A DNA stretch of 23,820 nt, taken from positions 64,001 through 87,820 of IMG/VR virus record IMGVR_UViG_3300021090_000001, one strand, 5' to 3'. The notes under the pieces were generated by a model, which was not told the origin of the DNA, did not search any database, and worked only from the letters and a program-made list of their open reading frames with translations. The DNA comes from a virus. Shown piece after piece: positions 1 to 8,784 of the stretch. The stretch's first letter is position 1, and the number at the start of each line of letters is the position of its first letter. The position numbers were made by a program, and so were the translations under genes.

Positions 1-1396
1 TGGTGTCGTCGGCGCCGTATCTGTCGATGCCATCGCTGATGTGAACGATGTCGGCTTTGTTGAAAGTCATCGTGCCCGTCCAGTCCTGGGCGAGCTTGAA
101 GGCGGGCGTTGCATCGGTCCCGCCATTGAAGAAGTGAGCGGCCATATCGACCACGGTTGCTGGGTCGAACAGTTCGTTGTGGGCGAAGGTCCACGTCTCT
201 TGCTCGCCCGAGCTGGCGAAGCCGATGACGGCGGCGTCGCGCTTCTCTTTGCGAGCGATTGCGATCAGCGCCAGGGTGACGGCCGTGGCCCAGACGAGCT
301 TCTGCCCGCCCATCGAGCCGGACTCATCGCGCAGGATGATCAGCGGTCCAAAGCCCGCCTCCTCCGTGCCCTGCTGTTGGTACTGCAACAGGGCTCGTTC
401 CTCAAACCGGCGCATAAACTCCAGTTCGGTCGTCGGGTCGAGCAGGAGCATCTTCTCGCTCGGGAGTAGAAGCTCGGGCTCGTTGCCCAGCTCGACATCG
501 ACAACCTCTTCGCGACCTCCGGTGATCCGGCGAGCGCGTTTGAAGCGCATGTCGCGAAGGATGCGGCCGACCATCTCGGCGACCTGCATCAGCATCGGGT
601 TTTCCTTGAACATCGAGGCAAGTTTGAGTGCGTCTTCGGGGTTCAGCTTCTGCCGTTCGCCCGGTCCAACGCCGGGCAGGCTGGCGATGAGCTGCGCGTC
701 TTCCTTCCCCTGTTCGGCGGCTTCTTCCAGTCCGGCGGCGGCGGCCACGGTGACGGGCAGTTCGCCCATCTTTTCCATATTCTTGTGCAGCCGGGCCTGA
801 GCGTTGTGCTTACGGTTGACGGCTTCGGTTAGTTCTTCCTGTTGTTCGGGAGTGATCTGGCCTTCCGCGTTGCTTACTTCTTCGCGTATTTCCTGGGCCT
901 TTTCCTCCTGCCGTTCGACCGTCTGCTCCTGCTTCTCGGCCTCCTTCGCCTCCTCGCCCAGCTCGGCCATATGCTCGGCCAGCGTCTCCCGGACCTGTTC
1001 GCTCATCCCCATCGTGGCGAAGGCGGACTCGATCTCCTGATGGCGCGTGATCGGCCGGGCGCCGTTGAACTCGGTGGTGCCGATCAGATGCTGCATGACG
1101 CGACGGTTGACCTCACGCGAGGGCTTGATCTCGTCGGGGGTGAGGACTCCAGGTTCCTCATACGTATAGAGGGATTTGAACACGTCGCCGACCAGGTCTT
1201 CCCAGTGGGGGACGTACTCCTCGGAGCCTTCGCCGGTCTGCTCGATCTCCGGCGCGCGGTCGATCTCGGCCTTGAAGACTTTCGCCTCTTCGGCCATCTT
1301 GTCGAACATGCCATCGTCCATCTTCGATCGACGGACGGTGGACTTCTCGCGACGTTTGACACGGTTCGTGTTGAAGAGGTCGCTTATGAGGGTCAT
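1..1396 (-). CDS. vWA (MIDAS) domain protein, partner of the MoxR ATPase; 3' end outside window
   Basis: Reading leftward from ATG 1396, 465 codons stay open to the window edge, so the C-terminus is missing. Residues about 134-210 are a charged, Glu/Gln/Lys-rich predicted coiled coil. From about residue 350 there is a von Willebrand factor A domain with a full metal-ion-dependent adhesion site: D357-E-S359-G-S361, T427 in NGGTDATP and D455 in HISDG. The layout (long helical N-terminal part, C-terminal vWA) matches ViaA/CoxE/CobT-type partners of MoxR ATPases, which present metal-bound clients for remodelling. The start lies 1 bp beyond the stop of the ATPase, so the two are one operon and probably translationally coupled. 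The family is secure; the client is unknown. Confidence 0.9.
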   Translation of the reverse strand, partial: MTLISDLFNTNRVKRREKSTVRRSKMDDGMFDKMAEEAKVFKAEIDRAPEIEQTGEGSEEYVPHWEDLVGDVFKSLYTYEEPGVLTPDEIKPSREVNRRVMQHLIGTTEFNGARPITRHQEIESAFATMGMSEQVRETLAEHMAELGEEAKEAEKQEQTVERQEEKAQEIREEVSNAEGQITPEQQEELTEAVNRKHNAQARLHKNMEKMGELPVTVAAAAGLEEAAEQGKEDAQLIASLPGVGPGERQKLNPEDALKLASMFKENPMLMQVAEMVGRILRDMRFKRARRITGGREEVVDVELGNEPELLLPSEKMLLLDPTTELEFMRRFEERALLQYQQQGTEEAGFGPLIILRDESGSMGGQKLVWATAVTLALIAIARKEKRDAAVIGFASSGEQETWTFAHNELFDPATVVDMAAHFFNGGTDATPAFKLAQDWTGTMTFNKADIVHISDGIDRYGADDT

Positions 1397-1397
1397 G

Positions 1398-2609
1398 TCA
1401 GAAGTCCATTCCCAGCGTTTTCCGCACGCTGCGGCGGTGGCGGTCGATCTCGGCCGCGATGGATTCCAGTTCGGAAGCGTCGTGCCCTTCGGTTGCCGCG
1501 TCCGCGATGTTCTGTTGGATCTCTTTGTTGAGGTTCGTCAGGGACGCCGCGAGCGTGGTCAGCTCGTTGACGACTTCCTTGTCGGGCTCGGTCGAGGAGT
1601 CGCTGGGCATCTTGCCCTGGGCGTCGCTGAGACGCTTCTGGAACTCCTCCAGGCTGGCCCGTGATCGAGCGGCCTGTTTGCCGATGGTCCCGGCGAAGTC
1701 GAGGGTCAGCTCCTGCGCGATCGTCAGCTCCTCGGGGTCGTTCCAGAGGATGTGCTCGAACAGACGCAAGTCCTCCGCTTTGACCTCGCCGCGCTCGCTC
1801 AGCAGCGCCATCGCCTGGCAGATTTTCACACCCTCGAACATGCGGCGTGAGGACAGGTGAAGGTTCTCGCGCTCGGCTTTCGACTGGAGTTCCGCAACCT
1901 TTTCCATGACACGATTCGGCACTTCGATGTTGGCGCTGGCCTCCTGGAGGAGTTCGATCTCCGGGACCGTCAGCGTAGTGTTGGTGGTGGCGATCGCTTC
2001 GCCTCGGTTGCGGGCGATCTGGCCGGTGAGGATTTCGCGGATGCCATCCTCGGTTCGGACGGGCTCCACGATGCGGCGGATGCCGAGCCGGTCGCTGAAC
2101 GCGATCAGCTCCTCTTTGTCGTGGCCGGGAAGCTCGTTCGACGCGGCGATGATCGACCACAGCGGGACGGTGATGATCTGCCCGTCGTTTTCAAACAGGC
2201 GCTCGTTCGCCATCTTCAGCAGCAGGTTGAGGTTGACCGCGTTCGACTTGAAAATCTCATCCAGGAACGCGAGGTTCGCCTCGGGCAGCCGCCCGGTGGT
2301 GACGCGCCGGAACTTGTCTTCTTTCATCGCCTGGAAGCTGATCGGCCCGACCAGCGCGTCGGGCGGGGTCTGCTTGTTGAGCAGATGCGTGAAGAGGGTG
2401 GCGCCATCGACGTGCTTGAGGAACTGGTCCACCATCATCGACTTCGCCACGCCGGGAGGTCCGAGCAGAAGCATGTGGACCTTGGCGATGACGGCCGCGA
2501 GCAGCAGGTCGATCTCGACCCCGCGCTCGACAACCTCGTCCTTCATCTCGTTGCGGATGTCGCGGGTCTTCGCTACGGCTGCGGCGACGGCGGCGTCGGT
2601 CACGGTCAT
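1398..2609 (-). CDS. MoxR-family AAA+ ATPase (RavA-like)
   Basis: A 403-residue AAA+ ATPase. Visible motifs are Walker A GPPGVAKS (50-57), Walker B LAFLDE (113-118), sensor-1 IIAASNE (N158) and a probable arginine finger in FSDRLGIRR (R174). A helical lid and a charged C-terminal helical tail follow. MoxR proteins form hexameric ring ATPases that act with a vWA protein to remodel or insert cofactors into targets; the next gene supplies that vWA partner. The start is ATG 2609, preceded by AAAGGAG. A 239-bp structured gap separates it from the upstream cistron, which suggests separate control. RavA-ViaA, CobS-CobT and vWA-MoxR conflict-system pairs all share this arrangement, and the sequence alone does not choose between them. 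Confidence 0.93.
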   Translation of the reverse strand: MTVTDAAVAAAVAKTRDIRNEMKDEVVERGVEIDLLLAAVIAKVHMLLLGPPGVAKSMMVDQFLKHVDGATLFTHLLNKQTPPDALVGPISFQAMKEDKFRRVTTGRLPEANLAFLDEIFKSNAVNLNLLLKMANERLFENDGQIITVPLWSIIAASNELPGHDKEELIAFSDRLGIRRIVEPVRTEDGIREILTGQIARNRGEAIATTNTTLTVPEIELLQEASANIEVPNRVMEKVAELQSKAERENLHLSSRRMFEGVKICQAMALLSERGEVKAEDLRLFEHILWNDPEELTIAQELTLDFAGTIGKQAARSRASLEEFQKRLSDAQGKMPSDSSTEPDKEVVNELTTLAASLTNLNKEIQQNIADAATEGHDASELESIAAEIDRHRRSVRKTLGMDF

Positions 2610-2635
2610 GGGGGTACGGCTCCTTTGGTCGAAGG

Positions 2636-2653
2636 TTGGGCGTTAACGCCCAA
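2636..2653. repeat. perfect 18-bp palindrome before the MoxR SD
   Basis: TTGGGCGTTAACGCCCAA reads identically on both strands. It ends 27 bp upstream of the ATPase start and about 10 bp before its SD. The position and symmetry fit an operator for a dimeric regulator. With no loop it is a poor RNA hairpin. Confidence 0.6.
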
Positions 2654-2694
2654 CGGACGTTACCAGATGGTTGTATGGTCATGCAACAAAGCAC

Positions 2695-2827
2695 GGTGAA
2701 CGCCTAGAGCGCCAGGTCAAAGACCAACCTCGCGGTCGGCGCCAACCGGCCGTTCGCGTGTCGATGCCTGTTACCAACACCACTGAGAACGGACACGCGG
2801 TGAAGGGGATAGCCCTAGACGTTCACC
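2695..2827 (-). ncRNA. candidate leader stem with two G-U wobbles
   Basis: The arms GGTGAACGCCTAGAGC (2695-2710) and GCCCTAGACGTTCACC (2812-2827) are complementary at 14 of 16 positions. The two exceptions are C2703/A2819 and A2708/C2814. In leftward RNA both become G-U wobbles, giving a continuous 16-bp stem, while in rightward RNA both are A-C mismatches. This asymmetry argues for a leftward RNA structure. A second hairpin (2755-2762/2792-2799) lies inside the loop. Confidence 0.45.
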
Positions 2828-2848
2828 CTGCTCTACGGCAGCTCGCCC

Positions 2849-3199
2849 TTAGAGAAACCGATACACGACCTCGCCGTTGGGGCGCTCGAAGCGAGTTGCT
2901 GGCGCCGACGCGCCGAAAGACAGTTCGATCGACTCGCGCAGCCGACTGACATCGACTCGATCCAGCTCATCTCCCTCCAACCATTCCACGTCGTAGTCCT
3001 CATAGGGGTCGGCGCTCATGACGGCACCACCGACCCCAATCGTGTAGATGGTCCCCCGGACGCGGATGCCGCTGTTGCCAGCGTCCTCGCCATCGGTGAT
3101 GTGCTGGATGTTCGCTTCCAACTCGTATTGCTTGCATTCCCCATAGGGGCCTGGTTCGGTCTGCCAGGTCTCGGTGTAGGTGATCTCAGTGTTGGTCAT
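2849..3199 (-). CDS. unknown 116-residue acidic protein
   Basis: I do not recognise this family. The protein is acidic with a beta-rich centre (NSGIRVRGTIYTIGVGG) and a C-terminal helix followed by NGEVVYRFL, so it is probably a small soluble globular protein. ATG 3199 is chosen over GTG 3208 because GAGGGGTGA sits at normal spacing before it. The first 14 bp overlap the 3' end of the zinc-ribbon gene upstream, so it is the last cistron of the long leftward chain. It is also the gene next to the MoxR-vWA pair, but the 239-bp gap leaves a functional link unproven. Confidence 0.72.
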   Translation of the reverse strand: MTNTEITYTETWQTEPGPYGECKQYELEANIQHITDGEDAGNSGIRVRGTIYTIGVGGAVMSADPYEDYDVEWLEGDELDRVDVSRLRESIELSFGASAPATRFERPNGEVVYRFL

Positions 3200-3962
3200 G
3201 GGAATCACCCCTCACTTTCACGGACGCGCTTAACGGGTACCAAGCCCGCGAGCCATCTGCGCAGTCGAATGCGATCAGGCCACTGCCGCGGTCACGCACC
3301 ACCCTCACTACCTCCTTTCCACTGTTCGTGTCGAACTCCCTGGCGCACTCGTCACACATCACGAGCGGCTGCCCGTCCGTGCTTTTCTGGAGAAGCTTGG
3401 CACCGCAGTTGGGGCAGGCAGAGCCTTCGGTGAGTGGCAGCTTGCCCTCGCTCGGCGGGGCGATCGCAACTAGCTCGGCACCCGAGCCGAGGTCGGCATA
3501 GATCCCGTCCTCGCGGACATCGAGGTCAACCGGCTCCCAGTCGTTCGTCTCAACCATCTCAGCGAGGTAGTCGCGCAGCTCCCGCTCGGTCATCTCGTCA
3601 GCGGTGGGGCTGATCCGGTCGTGGCAGATGGTGTAGGTCTGGGTGTCACGGGAACCAACCTTCCAGTCCTCGGCGACGAGGTAGTAACGACTCGGCTCAT
3701 CGTTCGCGGGGTCGCCCGATTCGCCTTGGTAGAGAAAGACATTGGGCTCGCCGTCGTCGGTGCCGGTGGAGGCGTTGAGGTAGATAAGCTCTTGCCGATC
3801 GCCGTCGTTGCTGCGGACGACGTATCCGACTTGGCCGCGCGCAGTTGCGTACGGGATGTACGTCACGCTGTCGTCGGTGACAATCGCGGCGCCCATCCAG
3901 ACGATCTCGGCATCGCAAAAGACCTCGTAGTTGTCGGGTCCCAAATTGAAGCTATCGGTCAT
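3186..3962 (-). CDS. zinc-ribbon protein, 258 residues
   Basis: Residues 183-206 form a zinc ribbon, C183-PN-C186 and C203-DE-C206. It is followed by a beta-rich tail in which a further Cys (C234) sits next to ADGSRAWYPL. The N-terminal 170 residues are acidic, mixed alpha/beta and unfamiliar. ATG 3962 forms an ATGA overlap with the upstream stop and is preceded by GAGGAGACC. The gene overlaps its downstream neighbour by 14 bp. It is probably a nucleic-acid or protein adaptor, but only the ribbon supports that; the substrate is unknown. Confidence 0.78.
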   Translation of the reverse strand: MTDSFNLGPDNYEVFCDAEIVWMGAAIVTDDSVTYIPYATARGQVGYVVRSNDGDRQELIYLNASTGTDDGEPNVFLYQGESGDPANDEPSRYYLVAEDWKVGSRDTQTYTICHDRISPTADEMTERELRDYLAEMVETNDWEPVDLDVREDGIYADLGSGAELVAIAPPSEGKLPLTEGSACPNCGAKLLQKSTDGQPLVMCDECAREFDTNSGKEVVRVVRDRGSGLIAFDCADGSRAWYPLSASVKVRGDSHDQH

Positions 3963-4297
3963 GAGGTCTCCTCGTCCAGTAGGTAGGCGCCTTCGGTGTC
4001 CAGTTCGGCGAGCCGGTGAGTGGCGATGGCGACCAGGTCGCGCAGCCATTCGGCGTTGTTCGCATTCGCCTCTCGACAGACCTCATGGAGGAGCAGGATC
4101 GGTGAAGGCGCCCCGGCTACACGCTCAAGCGATGGCGCCCGGACCCACGAGATGATCACATGGGGGCGGTCATAGCCGGATGTGTAAGGAATTTTCGTCA
4201 GCGTGCCATTCTTGCAGGTGATGCAGGGCTTACCATCCACATGGAGGCCGAGCTTCGGGGCGCCGCAGTTGAGGCAGATGAAAAGCTCAGCGGGCAT
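3959..4297 (-). CDS. N-terminal zinc-ribbon protein, paralogue of the 6263 gene
   Basis: A 112-residue protein opening with a zinc ribbon (ICLNCGAP ... PCITCKNG), then a conserved central piece ISWVRAPSLERVAG and a helical C-terminus LRDLVAIATHRLAELD. The product of 6263-6604 has the same order: CSGCG ... CPNC, VWVRTPSLALVAG, then LRDAAAFLERRLHELD. The two are clearly duplicates kept in one operon. ATG 4297 follows GGGAGGCC. The start overlaps the 3' end of the upstream gene by 11 bp and the stop overlaps the next gene as ATGA. Function unknown. Confidence 0.8.
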   Translation of the reverse strand: MPAELFICLNCGAPKLGLHVDGKPCITCKNGTLTKIPYTSGYDRPHVIISWVRAPSLERVAGAPSPILLLHEVCREANANNAEWLRDLVAIATHRLAELDTEGAYLLDEETS

Positions 4298-5171
4298 CGT
4301 CGGCCTCCCGGTTCACACGGCGGATGGCGACCTGCTCGCTCGGCAGAATCCGGCGTTCCAGTTCATTGATCGCTGGACCGATGTAATCCTCGTAAAGGCG
4401 GGCGGGTTCGTTACCCTCCTCGTCCTCCAGGAAGTCTGCAATCTGTTCGCGCGTCAGCTCGCCGCGCGCCTCCAGGATCAGGAAGACCTGCTCCATGATC
4501 GGGTCGGCGGTGAGCCGGTGCGGCACGTTGCCATCGGCCTTGCGGACCAACTTGGACTCGGTGCAAAAACTGAAGCCGAAGTCACCGGGTCCACATAGGG
4601 CGGCGCGACCCTGGATTACGTCCAGCTTACAAACCTCCATGAGATCGCCGTCGAGCGCGCGGACTTCCGCCCCAACCCAGTCGGCATATTCGCTCAGTTC
4701 GATCTGGAGTTCCTGCATGGCTTCGCGGATCTGCGAGTAGAAGTCCTGTTCGGCGGCGCCGATTGCGCCCGTCGCCTCGAAAGCGAGGGTGAGAAACCTG
4801 ACTGCGTCTTGGCCAAGGTCGAATAGGCATTCCGGGTCCCAGTCCTGCGTGCCGTCAACGGCCATCCAACCCGATGATCTACCGGCGCTGTAGATCGTGT
4901 TAAAGCCGTTCTCGGCGGCGAGTAGTTTCGCGTCGTCCCACCAGTTCTCCTGGGCACGCTGTTCGCACGCCTCGGCGACGGCGTCGGGCAGCGCGTAGAG
5001 AGCGATTTGAACGTCAGCGGGCATCGTGTGGCGGACCAGTTCTGCCTTGACGTTGACTGCCCACATATTGTCCTTCAGGTTGATCAGCACGCTATCGCTG
5101 CCGTTCGAGACGCGCACGTCCCGGCCTCGGAAGTAGCTGTTGGGCTTGGTGTTGAAGGTGTACCTAGTCAT
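4287..5171 (-). CDS. unknown 294-residue protein
   Basis: The largest orphan of the left chain. The N-terminus is beta-rich with Asn/Asp (VRVSNGSDSVLINLKDN). The middle is helical and acidic (EQDFYSQIREAMQELQIELSE is part of a long helix). The C-terminal third (ILEARGELTREQIADFLEDEEG) resembles a winged-helix-type helical pair. ATG 5171 follows GAAAGGA at normal spacing and overlaps the preceding 49-residue gene by 8 bp. No catalytic motif is visible. A DNA-binding C-terminus is possible but not shown. Confidence 0.75.
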   Translation of the reverse strand: MTRYTFNTKPNSYFRGRDVRVSNGSDSVLINLKDNMWAVNVKAELVRHTMPADVQIALYALPDAVAEACEQRAQENWWDDAKLLAAENGFNTIYSAGRSSGWMAVDGTQDWDPECLFDLGQDAVRFLTLAFEATGAIGAAEQDFYSQIREAMQELQIELSEYADWVGAEVRALDGDLMEVCKLDVIQGRAALCGPGDFGFSFCTESKLVRKADGNVPHRLTADPIMEQVFLILEARGELTREQIADFLEDEEGNEPARLYEDYIGPAINELERRILPSEQVAIRRVNREADDAR

Positions 5172-5313
5172 CGTTCGGTCCTTTCACGAGTAGGCGAAGT
5201 CCCGATTTGCCTACGTTCAGGTCGAGCCAGCCCCGGCCAACTCGCACCGTCCACATGGAGGGCTTCGCGGGCCAGTGAAAGAGGTTGATCGTGATTGAAA
5301 TACTGCCCTTCAT
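5164..5313 (-). CDS. small 49-residue protein
   Basis: It starts at ATG 5313, where GGAGG lies 8 bp upstream. It encodes a compact beta-strand-like sequence (SISITINLFHWP, then MWTVRVGRGWLDLNVGKSG) ending PNDD. The alternating hydrophobic pattern and the good SD support a real gene rather than a chance frame. The stop TAG overlaps the start of the 294-residue gene by 8 bp, and its own start sits in a TGATG overlap with the tiny Arg-rich frame upstream. Function unknown. Confidence 0.62.
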   Translation of the reverse strand: MKGSISITINLFHWPAKPSMWTVRVGRGWLDLNVGKSGLRLLVKGPNDD

Positions 5314-5399
5314 CAGCGAAACCTCCGTTCGAGATAGCGGCGCTGGCGGGCGCGGCGATCGAGAAGGCGACGATTGCGGCCAGAGCAAAAGCGCCGCAT
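5313..5399 (-). CDS. possible 28-residue Arg-rich peptide
   Basis: This short frame links two genes by TGATG overlaps at both ends (ATG 5399, stop 5313-5315). It encodes 28 residues, 13 of them arginine. Continuous coupling argues for translation. Against it, the peptide is tiny, arginine richness follows easily from GC-rich DNA, and another frame here spells a hydrophobic signal-like stretch without a start codon. Treat it as a linker frame or a candidate micro-peptide. Confidence 0.3.
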   Translation of the reverse strand: MRRFCSGRNRRLLDRRARQRRYLERRFR

Positions 5400-5914
5400 C
5401 AGTCCAGTTCTCCTTCCAGGTCGGCGCTCCAGATGGCAAGTTCTTCACCGTGTTCGGTGGCGAACTCCAGTTGGCGCGGCGTGTAGTCCTTGAAGAACTC
5501 CGCATCGGTGTCACCCGGCTTGCAAGACAGGAAGCCGAGCAGGTTCGCGAGCGTCAGCTCATCGTCACCGGCAGCCGCGCCGGGCGAGAACTCTTCGCCC
5601 GTGAAGACGATCTCCCACACCGGCAGCATGGCCAGTTCCTGGCCGAAGGCGTCACCCATCTGGTCTTGCATGGTGTCGGGCGCGCCGTTCGCCCTGGTCA
5701 ACTCCAGGACGCGCTCGCGATCGAGGATGCAGAAGCGGAAGGCGAGCACTGGCCAGCCGCGCCCGTCCGTGGTCTGCGTGTCCCAGGTTTCGACCATGTA
5801 GTCGTCGCGGGTCCAGGTGCCCAGCCACTCCAGGCGGTCGGGGTTCGAGATGCCGTCGCCGAACGGGAGGTCCAGCGATTGCGAACTTGCGAACTTGCGC
5901 TCGATCACGTCCAT
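5399..5914 (-). CDS. unknown 171-residue protein
   Basis: ATG 5914 is preceded by TTAGGAGTT at normal spacing, which fixes this start over longer upstream readings. The protein is acidic with Trp/Phe-rich beta segments (DYMVETWDTQTTDGRGWPVLAF, split here as DYMVETWD and GWPVLAFRF) and ends in FATEHGEELAIW and an acidic tail. No catalytic or membrane segment is visible. It begins 11 bp after the stop of the 50-residue gene and ends in a TGATG overlap. Function unknown. Confidence 0.75.
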   Translation of the reverse strand: MDVIERKFASSQSLDLPFGDGISNPDRLEWLGTWTRDDYMVETWDTQTTDGRGWPVLAFRFCILDRERVLELTRANGAPDTMQDQMGDAFGQELAMLPVWEIVFTGEEFSPGAAAGDDELTLANLLGFLSCKPGDTDAEFFKDYTPRQLEFATEHGEELAIWSADLEGELD

Positions 5915-5925
5915 CGGGTCAACTC

Positions 5926-6078
5926 CTAACGTGCGTTGAGGTTTTCTTCGGCAGCCGTTTGAGCGGCTGCCTTGGTCGGTCCCATCCCGGCGGCCAGTTC
6001 GGTGCCGTCGTCGTCGGTAAGCACGCACTGGTAGCAGCCGGGGAAGGGGAGCCAGTAGAACTTCGTCTTGGCTGCCAT
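5926..6078 (-). CDS. small 50-residue protein
   Basis: A short gene running from ATG 6078, in an ATGA overlap with the upstream gene, to TAG 5926-5928. It begins MAAKTKFYWLPFPGC and continues with a YxCxL strand, an acidic turn TDDDGTE and a helical Ala-rich C-terminus. This looks like a small beta-beta-alpha fold of the type seen in many phage accessory proteins. The gene fills what would otherwise be a gap between longer genes. The SD of the next gene begins inside its stop region, so the two are likely coupled. Confidence 0.68.
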   Translation of the reverse strand: MAAKTKFYWLPFPGCYQCVLTDDDGTELAAGMGPTKAAAQTAAEENLNAR

Positions 6079-6269
6079 CAGACGCGCGGTTCGCAGGCGG
6101 CTTCAAAGCGCTCGCGATCGAATTTCGGGTTGTCGGAGTGGAAGGCGTCACCGAGCCGGTCGATGATCGCCTCGGCGACAACGTCGGAATCAACCTCAGT
6201 CCCGTTGAATTCGCTCCAGCCACGACTGACGGCGTCGGCGATCATGTCATAGTGCATCCGGCTCAGCAA
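6078..6269 (-). CDS. small phage/plasmid-type protein with FDRERFEAAC ending
   Basis: A 63-residue helical protein. The pattern HYDMIADAV near the start and N-P-K-F-D-R-E-R-F-E-A-A-C at the end matches, from memory, a very common small family in actinobacterial phages and mobile elements whose members end F-x-R-x-R-F-x-x-A-C. I do not know its function. TTG 6269 is preferred because GAGGAG lies 5 bp upstream and it overlaps the upstream stop. ATG 6257 is the alternative but has no SD. It overlaps the next gene as ATGA. Confidence 0.72.
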   Translation of the reverse strand: MLSRMHYDMIADAVSRGWSEFNGTEVDSDVVAEAIIDRLGDAFHSDNPKFDRERFEAACEPRV

Positions 6270-6604
6270 GGTGGCTCCTCTCCAAGGCGTTCGACATCGA
6301 GTTCATGTAGTCGCCGCTCCAGGAAGGCGGCGGCGTCGCGCAGCGCTTCGGGGTCATCAGGCAAGCCCATAGCCACTTCCAGCGCTTCGCGGGCGCCCCG
6401 TCGAGGGTTCCCACATCCGGCGACAAGCGCAAGCGAGGGAGTGCGGACCCAGACATCGAGCCGGTGCGGCAGGTCGTAGTTGTTCCGGAAAGGGACTGGC
6501 GAATAGGAATCCGCCTGAATGCAATTCGGGCAGGTTTCCCCCGACATTGAAAGCGCGCTCGTTCGACCGCAGCCGCTGCATTGGAGAAGGTCGCCGGGTG
6601 CCAT
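6263..6604 (-). CDS. N-terminal zinc-ribbon protein, paralogue of the 3959 gene
   Basis: A 113-residue protein whose N-terminal ribbon is C-SG-C ... C-PN-C, then VWVRTPSLALVAG and a helix with ALRDAAAFLERRLHELD. It shares order, spacing and the W-V-R-(A/T)-P-S-L core with the protein at 3959-4297. The ribbon residues are conserved while flanks have diverged, so this is an old duplication rather than a recent copy. ATG 6604 sits in a TGATG overlap with the upstream gene. The stop overlaps the next start by 7 bp. Confidence 0.8.
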   Translation of the reverse strand: MAPGDLLQCSGCGRTSALSMSGETCPNCIQADSYSPVPFRNNYDLPHRLDVWVRTPSLALVAGCGNPRRGAREALEVAMGLPDDPEALRDAAAFLERRLHELDVERLGEEPPC

Positions 6605-6963
6605 CAGGTGCTCCGGGCATAGTAGCCCTCACCCTGGTAGTTGACTTCGACGTAATCGGCCGTCAGCGCGTCGGCGGCGGCCTCCCAATCGATGTAACTA
6701 AGCGGCCAACCCTCCTCGCCGCTGATCGCGCCGATGTCCTTGGCCAGCTCGCGGGCTAAGTCCTCGAATTCCCACGTCGGGATCATGGTCTCGCCATGGT
6801 TGAACTCGCTGACCTCGTCTTCGATCGCCTTGATCTCATCGAACTCTTCGCGGTCCTCGCGGGTCCAGGGCGTCCAGTCCTCGCTTCCCTCGTTCGCGGG
6901 ATCGTGTAGAGCAAGCAGCTCATCGCGTCGCTCGGCAAGGTCGCGGGTGTCGATGTAGCTCAT
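6604..6963 (-). CDS. phage-type protein beginning MSYIDTRDL, 119 residues
   Basis: It begins MSYIDTRDLAERRDELLAL, has a charged coil in the middle, and ends with the block EEGWPLSYIDWEAAADAL followed by DYVEVNYQGEGYYAR. I recognise this N-terminus plus the I-D-W-E-A-A-A-D-x-L block from a widespread family in phages and metagenomic phage contigs. The tail resembles small host-takeover or antirestriction-type proteins, but I cannot confirm that role. ATG 6963 overlaps the upstream stop as ATGA, and the next gene starts in a TGATG overlap. Confidence 0.75.
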   Translation of the reverse strand: MSYIDTRDLAERRDELLALHDPANEGSEDWTPWTREDREEFDEIKAIEDEVSEFNHGETMIPTWEFEDLARELAKDIGAISGEEGWPLSYIDWEAAADALTADYVEVNYQGEGYYARST

Positions 6964-7319
6964 GAAGGTTCGCTCCCCTCTGCGTCAAGCGCCCGGATTA
7001 GGTCCTCGATGGTTGAGAACTGCTCCTGGGCGCTTTCGACCGTCTTGAAGTCCCTGAGCAGGACGAAGCCCGCGCTGTCAGTCCCGACGATCCATTGCTC
7101 AATGCGAGCGTAGTGCCCATGCGTGTCGGCCACTCCGCATTCCTCATCGGCTAGGCCATCGGTGACCAGGTCGTCCAGCGCGGCGGCGAGAATGCGATCC
7201 TCGGCGCGCTCGTACTTGCTGGACTCTGAGCGGGCGGTTAGCTCCGTTCGCCGTTTCGCGGCCAGCTCGGAGCTATAGGCGAGGCTGATTGCCTTGGCGA
7301 TGATGTCTTCGCGGTTCAT
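6960..7319 (-). CDS. unknown 119-residue protein, first gene of the long leftward chain
   Basis: ATG 7319 is preceded by AAAGGAG at 7-bp spacing, so it is preferred over longer upstream readings. The N-terminal half is helical (REDIIAKAISLAYSSELAAKRR) and carries a DxGLADEECG turn. The C-terminal half has beta strands (IEQWIVGTDSAGFVLLRDF) and a terminal helix. It is the head of the chain that runs by overlaps down to 2849, and about 180 bp of structured, gene-free DNA precede it. Function unknown. Confidence 0.75.
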   Translation of the reverse strand: MNREDIIAKAISLAYSSELAAKRRTELTARSESSKYERAEDRILAAALDDLVTDGLADEECGVADTHGHYARIEQWIVGTDSAGFVLLRDFKTVESAQEQFSTIEDLIRALDAEGSEPS

Positions 7320-7526
7320 TCCCGGCTCCTTTCCTGCTGCCGTTGAAGGATAGGCCGGAACCCGCCCGAAGGCGAGCCCGGCAGGTTCGCGCACGTTCGA
7401 TGCAGCGCCAAGCTCCGTAGGCTCGCGCACCGGGGGCTAGAGGTCGCCGAAGGCAACATAGGTCGGTGGAAAAGTCGGGTTGACGCTGCATCCAACGTGC
7501 GTTCGCAGTTTAGCTCGTTCGCTTGT
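7320..7526 (-). promoter_or_regulatory. structured leader of the 7319 unit
   Basis: No gene is supported here. It contains the inverted repeat 7390-7407/7484-7501 and two GCGAACG heptamers (7500-7506 and 7516-7522, minus strand). It also holds the AAAGGAG SD close to 7319. I see no convincing -35/-10 pair. Confidence 0.45.
7390..7501 (-). repeat. 18-bp inverted repeat with one internal mismatch (leader 3)
   Basis: CGCACGTTCGATGCAGCG (7390-7407) is complementary to CGCTGCATCCAACGTGCG (7484-7501) at 17 of 18 positions, with a 76-nt loop. The only mismatch is C7398/C7493 (G-G in leftward RNA). The core GCATCSAACG is shared with the repeat upstream of 7709. Confidence 0.6.
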
Positions 7527-7709
7527 TCAAGCGGTTCGCGCGACTCTGCGAAACAAGGAAGTGAAGCGGCGTGATTTGCGAGCTTGAGAACGGACGGTGA
7601 TCGGCACGTTGACCGCACCACCACGATGTTCGATCGGCAGGCAAATCACGCCGCGAGCGGAAGGCGGAAGCTCGTACCGGCCGTTCGTGTACGTGGAGTC
7701 CGGTTGCAT
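7527..7709 (-). CDS. small basic 60-residue protein
   Basis: ATG 7709 has a strong SD, GGAAGGAGCCAAGCG, immediately upstream. The product starts MQPDSTYTNGRYELPPSARG, has a central beta-like stretch (VICLPIEHRGGAVNVPITV) and ends in a basic Arg/Lys tail, RRFTSLFRRVART. The N-terminus YTNGRYELPPSARG resembles a small strand-turn module and the basic tail could bind nucleic acid. It forms its own short unit with a structured leader (7731-7821) and is not overlapped by a neighbour. Function unknown; support comes from the SD and context. Confidence 0.6.
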   Translation of the reverse strand: MQPDSTYTNGRYELPPSARGVICLPIEHRGGAVNVPITVRSQARKSRRFTSLFRRVARTA

Positions 7710-7730
7710 CGCTTGGCTCCTTCCGAAGTT

Positions 7731-7821
7731 GATCGTTCGATGCGCCACCACCCGTGCAGAGCGCTCTGCTGTCCCCCGTGCTGATTGAGGGAGTCTGCGT
7801 GCGGCGGCGCATCCAACGATC
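7731..7821 (-). repeat. 16-bp inverted repeat with one internal mismatch (leader 2)
   Basis: GATCGTTCGATGCGCC (7731-7746) pairs with GGCGCATCCAACGATC (7806-7821) at 15 of 16 positions. The mismatch is C7738/C7814, at the same place in the shared core as in the repeat near 7390-7501. The 59-nt loop contains the perfect palindrome GCAGAGCGCTCTGC (7756-7769). It ends 22 bp before the 7709 start, next to its SD. Confidence 0.6.
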
Positions 7822-7830
7822 CGTTCGCAG

Positions 7831-7882
7831 TTCCTTTTCGGGCGCCCGTTCGCTAGGGGGGCGAATGGCGCCCGAAAAGAAA
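7831..7882. repeat. long imperfect inverted repeat between two units
   Basis: TTCCTTTTCGGGCGCC then CGTTCGC (7831-7853) mirrors GCGAATGGCGCCC then GAAAAGAAA (7861-7882), giving roughly 20 paired positions around a short TAGGGGG loop. It lies directly downstream of the 8191 gene's terminator and upstream of the 7709 unit. It may be a second terminator stem or a protein site. Confidence 0.45.
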
Positions 7883-7903
7883 CTGCCCTCACGAGGAGGG
7901 CAG
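7875..7903 (-). terminator. Rho-independent terminator of the 8191 gene
   Basis: In leftward RNA CTGCCCTC (7903-7896) and GAGGGCAG (7890-7883) form an 8-bp stem with a 5-nt loop, followed at once by UUUCUUUU (7882-7875). The stem starts in the last codons and the stop codon lies in the loop region, so the 3' end of the gene and the terminator overlap. Confidence 0.8.
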
Positions 7904-8191
7904 CTCCTTGGCCAACGCGGCGACTGCTGCGAGCGGCATCGCTTTGATGCGCCCGCCGCCTGAGGGCGTGTACTCGGCGAACAGGTACTTGCTGTCGCCT
8001 TTCTGCGAGGCGCGCTCGACCACGCTGACCTCGCCCATGCCGCCGACCGCGTACGGGCCTGCGACGACGACACCCTCACGGGTGCGCGGCTGCACGGTGG
8101 CGGCCTGCTCGGTGGCGGCCTTGACCGCGTCTGCGAGCCTGTTGGGCGCGGGCGGCGTGGCCGTCTGCGTTGCGGTTGCGGCTTTGCTCAT
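7889..8191 (-). CDS. unknown 100-residue Ala/Pro-rich protein
   Basis: ATG 8191 follows AAGGAG with normal spacing. The first 35 residues are Ala/Thr/Pro-rich and likely disordered. The rest is a small beta-rich domain (TREGVVVAGPYAVGGMGEVSVVERASQ is part of it; then KYLFAEYTPSGGGRIKAMPL) closing with a helix ALAKELPSS. It is the first leftward gene after the central divergent region and is a single-gene unit, ending in a terminator that overlaps its stop. Being promoter-proximal to a putative origin or operator, it could be a regulator, but no known DNA-binding motif is visible. Confidence 0.75.
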   Translation of the reverse strand: MSKAATATQTATPPAPNRLADAVKAATEQAATVQPRTREGVVVAGPYAVGGMGEVSVVERASQKGDSKYLFAEYTPSGGGRIKAMPLAAVAALAKELPSS

Positions 8192-8226
8192 TCGTTCGTC
8201 TCCTTGTGCGCGTTTACGGTGCGGGT

Positions 8227-8290
8227 CGAACTCAGCGCGCGTCAGGTCATAGAGGCGTTTCCGCTCAGATCTGACCGCGCGCTCAGTTCG
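8227..8290 (-). repeat. 15-bp inverted repeat with one internal mismatch (leader 1)
   Basis: CGAACTCAGCGCGCG (8227-8241) pairs with CGCGCGCTCAGTTCG (8276-8290) at 14 of 15 positions. The mismatch is C8233/C8284. The stem continues inward with TCAG/CTGA (8242-8245/8271-8274) past a one-base bulge. It sits in the leader of the 8191 gene. Confidence 0.55.
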
Positions 8291-8317
8291 CGTTCGCCCG
8301 TTCGTTCGTGCGTTCGC
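8286..8317. repeat. cluster of GTTCG/CGTTCGC repeats
   Basis: Within 32 bp there are five GTTCG pentamers. Two belong to the heptamer CGTTCGC (8291-8297 and 8311-8317). The same heptamer recurs in the other leaders, so this may be a clustered protein-binding site. Confidence 0.4.
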
Positions 8318-8350
8318 AAGCGCTTAGGGGCGAGCCCGGCGCGCCGTGGC

Positions 8351-8428: not shown

Positions 8429-8475
8429 GTCCAGATGCGGGGCCGAACGCGGCGAGTGCCGCGACGACCACGGGA

Positions 8476-8754
8476 GATAGTCGCCGACCCGTTACCGGGC
8501 GGCGATGCCGCGTCCACGGCGTGGCCGGGACGCGGTGAGCGTCCGGCGTAACCGTGGGATGCGACAAGGGATAGTCACCGGCCCGTTACCGCCCGCACAG
8601 AGCCAAGCGCGGCGAGCGGCGTCCCGCGCCTGGTCGAGGAGCCCGCCGCCGGTAACGGCTGGCCGACTATGGAGCTGAGTGAGTGGAAACACCCGACCGG
8701 CGCCGGGCGGTAGCTAACCCCGCCGCCCGGCCCGGTAACGGGTTGCCGACTATC
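8476..8754. repeat. four 24-bp elements in head-to-head pairs
   Basis: The consensus is GATAGTCGSCRA followed by CCCGTTACCGGG. Copies A (8476-8499) and B (8570-8593) read on plus; C (8648-8671) and D (8731-8754) read on minus. A and D differ at only two positions; B and C are more diverged. The pairs point towards each other around about 8615. GC-rich dyads lie between A and B (8508-8515/8528-8535), near the centre (8607-8612/8624-8629) and between C and D (8703-8710/8723-8730). The outer dyads both have 8-bp arms and 12-nt centres. This fits iterons or a cooperative operator array. Confidence 0.7.
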
Positions 8755-8784
8755 TTGATAACGCCCAACATCCGTTGAGACCTA

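Follow-up and report, generated by a model that had tools for sequence, protein, structure and literature searches.

Candidate RNA hairpins with a shared G-G-interrupted core in the leader of a leftward operon of an uncultured tailed phage

Genes and inverted repeats at the head of the leftward operon

IMGVR_UViG_3300021090_000001 (IMG/VR; 87,820 bases) is an uncultured tailed-phage contig of 87.8 kb, and the window analyzed here is a stretch of 23,820 nucleotides that corresponds to positions 64001-87820 of this record. A related record, IMGVR_UViG_3300046499_000680 (83,201 bases; hereafter G001), represents a colinear phage, with protein identity mostly between 30 and 70%. The large terminase gene of the present record (L003, 6359-9109) has its Walker A region split by an intein-like LAGLIDADG insert, at approximately residues 91-426, that is missing in G001; tRNA-Trp (L004, 5212-5290) and tRNA-Tyr (L006, 3155-3237) were called in this record and none in G001.

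The operon of interest is taken to be transcribed leftward; both the direction and the start of transcription are deduced from the arrangement of the genes, and the scan called no sigma-70 promoter. The features at its head are collected in Table 1. The product of the first gene shows no family match, and in both phages this gene is followed by a terminator-like stem-loop, which was called by the terminator scanner in G001 and was recognized by eye, without a scanner call, in the window. The same operon includes a gene for a MoxR-type AAA ATPase (window 1398-2609; Pfam bpMoxR, 2e-43), and an ArdA-like antirestriction protein is encoded at window 6604-6963 (phrog_2059, E 1e-8; Pfam ArdA below the cut-off). 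The intergenic region between divergent genes at window 8475-8755 contains four copies of a 22-nt repeat (GATAGTCGCCGACCCGTTACCG), two direct and two inverted. For these repeats (window 8475-8755; L040 15887-16181), G001 has 26-27-nt counterparts of different sequence in a similar layout, an arrangement suggestive of operators serving two divergent promoters, or else of an origin.

Table 1. Features of the leftward operon head (window coordinates); arms are given as read in the leftward RNA
Feature	Position	Strand	Sequence	Remarks
Five CGAAC words in 31 nt, head of leader	8286..8316	-		
IR3 5' arm	8276..8290	-	CGAACTGAGCGCGCG	15 bp; G-G opposition 8284/8233; lacks the shared core
IR3 3' arm	8227..8241	-	CGCGCGCTGAGTTCG	34-nt loop
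First gene of leftward operon, 100 aa	7889..8191	-		homologue in G001
Intrinsic-terminator-like stem-loop	7875..7903	-	CTGCCCTC CTCGT GAGGGCAG TTTCTTTT	overlaps first-gene end; by eye
Fourth strong hairpin	7827..7886	-		20-bp arms; ends 5 nt before IR2
IR2 5' arm	7806..7821	-	GATCGTTGGATGCGCC	16 bp; identical to orthologous arm in G001
IR2 3' arm	7731..7746	-	GGCGCATCGAACGATC	carries CGAAC; 59-nt loop; C7738/C7814 on plus strand
Candidate 60-aa ORF between IR2 and IR1	7527..7709	-		Shine-Dalgarno-like sequence; coding status uncertain
Perfect 14-bp inverted repeat	7566..7654	-		61-nt loop; within the 60-aa ORF
IR1 5' arm	7484..7501	-	CGCACGTTGGATGCAGCG	18 bp; G-G opposition 7493/7398
IR1 3' arm	7390..7407	-	CGCTGCATCGAACGTGCG	carries CGAAC; 76-nt loop separates arms
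119-aa ORF downstream of IR1	6960..7319	-		no family

The original prediction described three inverted repeats (IR1, IR2 and IR3) with arms of 18, 16 and 15 bp, located upstream of the minus-strand starts 7319, 7709 and 8191 and each interrupted by a single C/C opposition (7398/7493, 7738/7814 and 8233/8284, respectively). The sequence itself bears out the arms, their coordinates and the single oppositions, as does a separate scan that covered the complete record. IR1 and IR2 each occupy a gap between ORFs of the leftward operon, upstream of a start, and a Shine-Dalgarno-like GGAG precedes each of the three starts. The three repeats rank among the strongest in the entire 87.8 kb record and exceed chance. 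In 16 dinucleotide shuffles of the record that kept local composition (span of at most 130, no more than one mismatch), six repeats of at least 15 bp arose in total (approximately 0.4 per genome), one of them of at least 16 bp, compared with five in the real record (20, 18, 16, 15 and 15 bp), four of which are located between 7390 and 8290; the strongest of those four is the 7827-7886 repeat. Intrinsic terminators were rejected as an explanation of IR1-IR3, given loops of 34-76 nt and no T run.

A hairpin family shared with a second phage

On the leftward strand, IR1 and IR2 contain a common 10-nt core, CGTTGGATGC/GCATCGAACG, with the G·G opposition at the same place, in agreement with the original observation of a core common to two of the repeats, and, judging by these sequences, they are members of one hairpin family. 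IR3 has a similar layout but no sequence in common with them. Outside the core, IR1 and IR2 differ by compensatory changes (A-T/T-A, C-G/A-T, A-T/G-C and G-C/C-G).

A scan of viral_contigs for the exact core with a gap of 62-92 nt yielded 30 stretches, among which a single one (L019, in G001) extends into a full stem. The arms of this orthologue, GATCGTTGGATGCGCCG/CGGCGCATCGAACGATC, fully match both arms of IR2, the G·G included, and the hairpin is the strongest inverted repeat detected in G001. With blastn, the entire hairpin aligned with 66% identity over 106 columns, with a diverged loop; in this head region, the first-gene coding region excepted, nothing else aligns as well. In both phages, the hairpins are situated between short leftward ORFs, downstream of the homologous first gene.

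After manual trimming of the arms and their alignment on the core, the three hairpins (IR1, IR2 and the orthologue, two of the three coming from one genome) comprise 16 stem pairs, of which 4 are changed on both sides, 11 are invariant and none is broken, with 48 of 48 pair cells paired; because there is hardly any difference between IR2 and the G001 copy over these arms, these changes reflect essentially one contrast, that between IR1 and the other two. In the full-hairpin alignment, both-sided change is found in 6 of 20 pairs, and the signal of covariation is abolished when the pairing partner is slid.

The proposal that the leader repeats are under selection is supported for IR1 and IR2, given that the orthologue keeps the arms and the G-G and that the flanks vary in a compensatory manner between copies. 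The further claim that the same defect had been selected three times is not supported: IR3 is unrelated in sequence, and C/C is the commonest mismatch among the chance repeats of the shuffles (12 of 85, or 14%), so that what appeared as one defect in triplicate becomes two related copies and one probable coincidence. The recurrence of C/C in IR3 is weak evidence.

Searches for further copies detected no additional member of the family. For the exact core in viral_contigs with gaps of 62-92 and 31-61 nt, the number of matches was close to a rough chance expectation, and the only real stem was that of G001. The self-complementary core, with perfect or mismatched pairs, gave 69 matches in genome_contigs, none with a stem like that of IR1 and IR2 and the longest (L057) with a perfect core and 8 further inner pairs; the others were taken as chance. 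A looser scan pointed to one possible copy more in G001 at 48560-48700 (17 of 20 core letters), which lies in or beside coding sequence and is probably also due to chance. Among the protein queries, the first-gene pair retrieved G001 as the sole relative, a conserved 120-aa protein led to six more records, all without the repeat, MoxR led to distant loci without the core pair, and the capsid protein led to short contigs. The absence of the hairpin from ten other records that have a protein in common with these phages says little because most of them are without the homologous region. In Rfam, there was no gathering-level match in the window, and the region and L019 gave weak sub-threshold matches only.

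Strand preference and the CGAAC word

The predicted RNA folds of these repeats have z-scores of -5.4 for IR1, -5.9 for IR2, -6.3 for IR3 and -5.6 for the G001 hairpin. The leftward transcript folds better than the rightward one for IR1 (-56.9 versus -50.9 kcal/mol), IR2 (-52.7 versus -41.9) and the G001 hairpin (-59.0 versus -48.4), and the leftward folds of these three hold 3-4 G·U pairs; IR3 folds equally on both strands. In the 7827-7886 repeat, a C/A opposition on the plus strand becomes a G-U pair in the leftward RNA, the only strand on which this repeat is fully paired. Given the better leftward folds and the complete pairing of this fourth repeat, the repeats most likely represent RNA elements belonging to the leftward transcript. 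The original prediction had left the choice between a G-G pair in RNA and a protein site; the RNA alternative is favored, and a double-stranded protein site is disfavored by the strand dependence of folding and the G-U pairs. In the predicted fold, only about 3.4 kcal/mol would be gained if the G·G were a Watson-Crick pair, so the G·G is not needed for folding. Its retention would then have another cause, or else CGAAC is required in the 3' arm while the 5' arm is constrained for a different purpose.

In IR1, IR2 and the G001 hairpin, the 3' arm has its odd G within a CGAAC word, at the second position. The sense strand of the leftward operon (window 1-8320; G001 46500-55600) shows an approximately fivefold enrichment of this word, with 61 sense and 12 antisense occurrences in 8.3 kb here and 71 and 15, respectively, over 9.1 kb in G001, against about 12 expected from base composition; these numbers are descriptive because the region was chosen after the word had been seen. 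CGAAC is densest at the operon head, where 1.0 kb of the present record contains 16 copies and 0.94 kb of G001 contains 13, and does not occur in the first gene of either phage. In the coding part of the operon, 43 occurrences compare with 23.9 in synonymous codon shuffles here (z 4.8), and 42 compare with 20.5 in G001 (z 6.2); the rightward genes show no excess (z -0.9 and 1.4). With both phages combined, CGAAC is the first among 1024 pentamers, with GATCA close behind. The coding-part enrichment alone would be weak because pentamer biases are common in phage genes, and the stronger part of the case consists in the density at the operon head and the recurrence in a second phage.

A literature search for the motif and for such a CGAAC array found no relevant description. 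A LexA box, of which CGAAC would be a part, was considered and rejected: IR1 reads CGAAC-N4-GTTGG, but the spacer in IR2 is N5, and G001 is without that CGAAC. Another locus rich in CGAAC (L130) has the words opposite to its MoxR gene and a different gene order, and was set aside.

Possible functions of the hairpins

The explanation that we favor, with belief and doubt evenly balanced, is that IR1 and IR2 are cis-acting RNA hairpins of the leftward polycistronic mRNA, the core of which is bound by a sequence-specific RNA-binding protein. Each would consist of an intergenic stem of 16-18 bp, an invariant core broken by one G-G and a long variable loop, with flanks that may vary freely provided that they pair. 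The invariant core would be the binding site of a phage or host RNA-binding protein controlling the processing, stability, translation or elongation of the first operon genes; the G-G would mark the recognition site, and CGAAC would belong to the recognized sequence. IR3 and the 7827-7886 hairpin would be further structured RNA of the same leader rather than copies of the motif. Recognition by a protein is preferred because a sequence-specific RNA ligand would leave an invariant core and free paired flanks, although the core could be a DNA site instead. A comparable element is boxB of phage lambda, the RNA hairpin in the phage leader that is bound by protein N. The hairpins proposed here resemble boxB as sequence-specific RNA recognition elements inside a polycistronic phage leader, but have a stem of 16-18 bp and a very long apical loop. 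An invariant RNA core that has retained its G·G in diverged phages makes a good candidate for a new pair of RNA and recognizing protein.

The main rival, possible but clearly less probable, is that the hairpins are intergenic RNase III processing sites, in which the G-G would interrupt the helix and might restrict cleavage to one strand. Their intercistronic location and, in the predicted folds, an almost unbroken helix of about two turns with an internal defect are compatible with this possibility, and they are similar to the intercistronic hairpins of T7 early mRNA, RNase III sites that are likewise structured, lie between genes and have a helix broken by a defect. The T7 R1.1 site spans 60 nt between genes 1.0 and 1.1 and contains an asymmetric internal loop (PMC6121014); single-strand cuts at R1.1 mature T7 mRNA (PMC8708148). 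Unlike R1.1, the hairpins described here have an invariant core, a single G-G, which is a smaller defect than the 4/5-nt internal loop, and far longer loops of 59-76 nt. RNase III would not need the 10-nt core to be invariant on both sides, as it is here with 11 of 16 pairs unchanged.

It is rather unlikely that a looping DNA-binding protein uses the two arms as its half-sites or that the repeat acts as an extruded DNA hairpin. Such a DNA site would also account for the invariant core, and the odd bases are 95, 76 and 86 bp apart (9.05, 7.24 and 8.19 turns), that is, roughly in phase; half-sites, however, do not need complementary flanks, whereas the flanks beyond the core pair and covary, the leftward RNA outfolds the other strand, and complete pairing of the 20-bp repeat next to IR2 is reached only in the leftward RNA. 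A DNA element of another kind, the integron attC site, begins with the inverse core RYYYAAC and ends with the core GTTRRRY. The repeats are similar to attC in being imperfect and inverted, in lying beside small ORFs and in their AAC/GTT ends, but differ in having a mismatch instead of extrahelical bases, and no integrase context was seen; attC was rejected given that the required AAC...GTT order is not found, both strands reading GTT...AAC. Slightly less probable still is that these are ordinary imperfect hairpins with a meaningless mismatch, IR1 and IR2 being a chance duplication: the prevalence of C/C in the shuffles and the lack of the core in IR3 would fit, but G001 has identical arms and the G-G although the surrounding noncoding DNA does not align, and the flank differences are compensatory instead of reflecting decay.

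The strand- and operon-specific CGAAC array offers a direct handle for finding the reader of the motif. The first-gene product is predicted, in a model built from two sequences (pLDDT 64.7), to consist of a helix, four strands and a helix. In a Foldseek search with this model, the top rows were weak matches to Pur-alpha (best E 0.046), and VIA likewise gave Pur-alpha the highest rank (Z about 8) and listed Whirly, MRP1/2, YdbC and Sub1 lower down, a hint that the protein may adopt a PUR/PC4/Whirly-like single-strand nucleic-acid-binding fold. To connect this protein with CGAAC or with the hairpins is speculative. In the most far-reaching scenario, which we regard as improbable, the product of the first gene is a single-strand-binding protein of the PUR/PC4-like type, and this protein or another one reads the many CGAAC words and the G-G hairpins in the rest of the leftward transcript. 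Its action would be confined to this one mRNA, the termination, stability or translation of which it would control, which would amount to an undescribed phage regulatory system.
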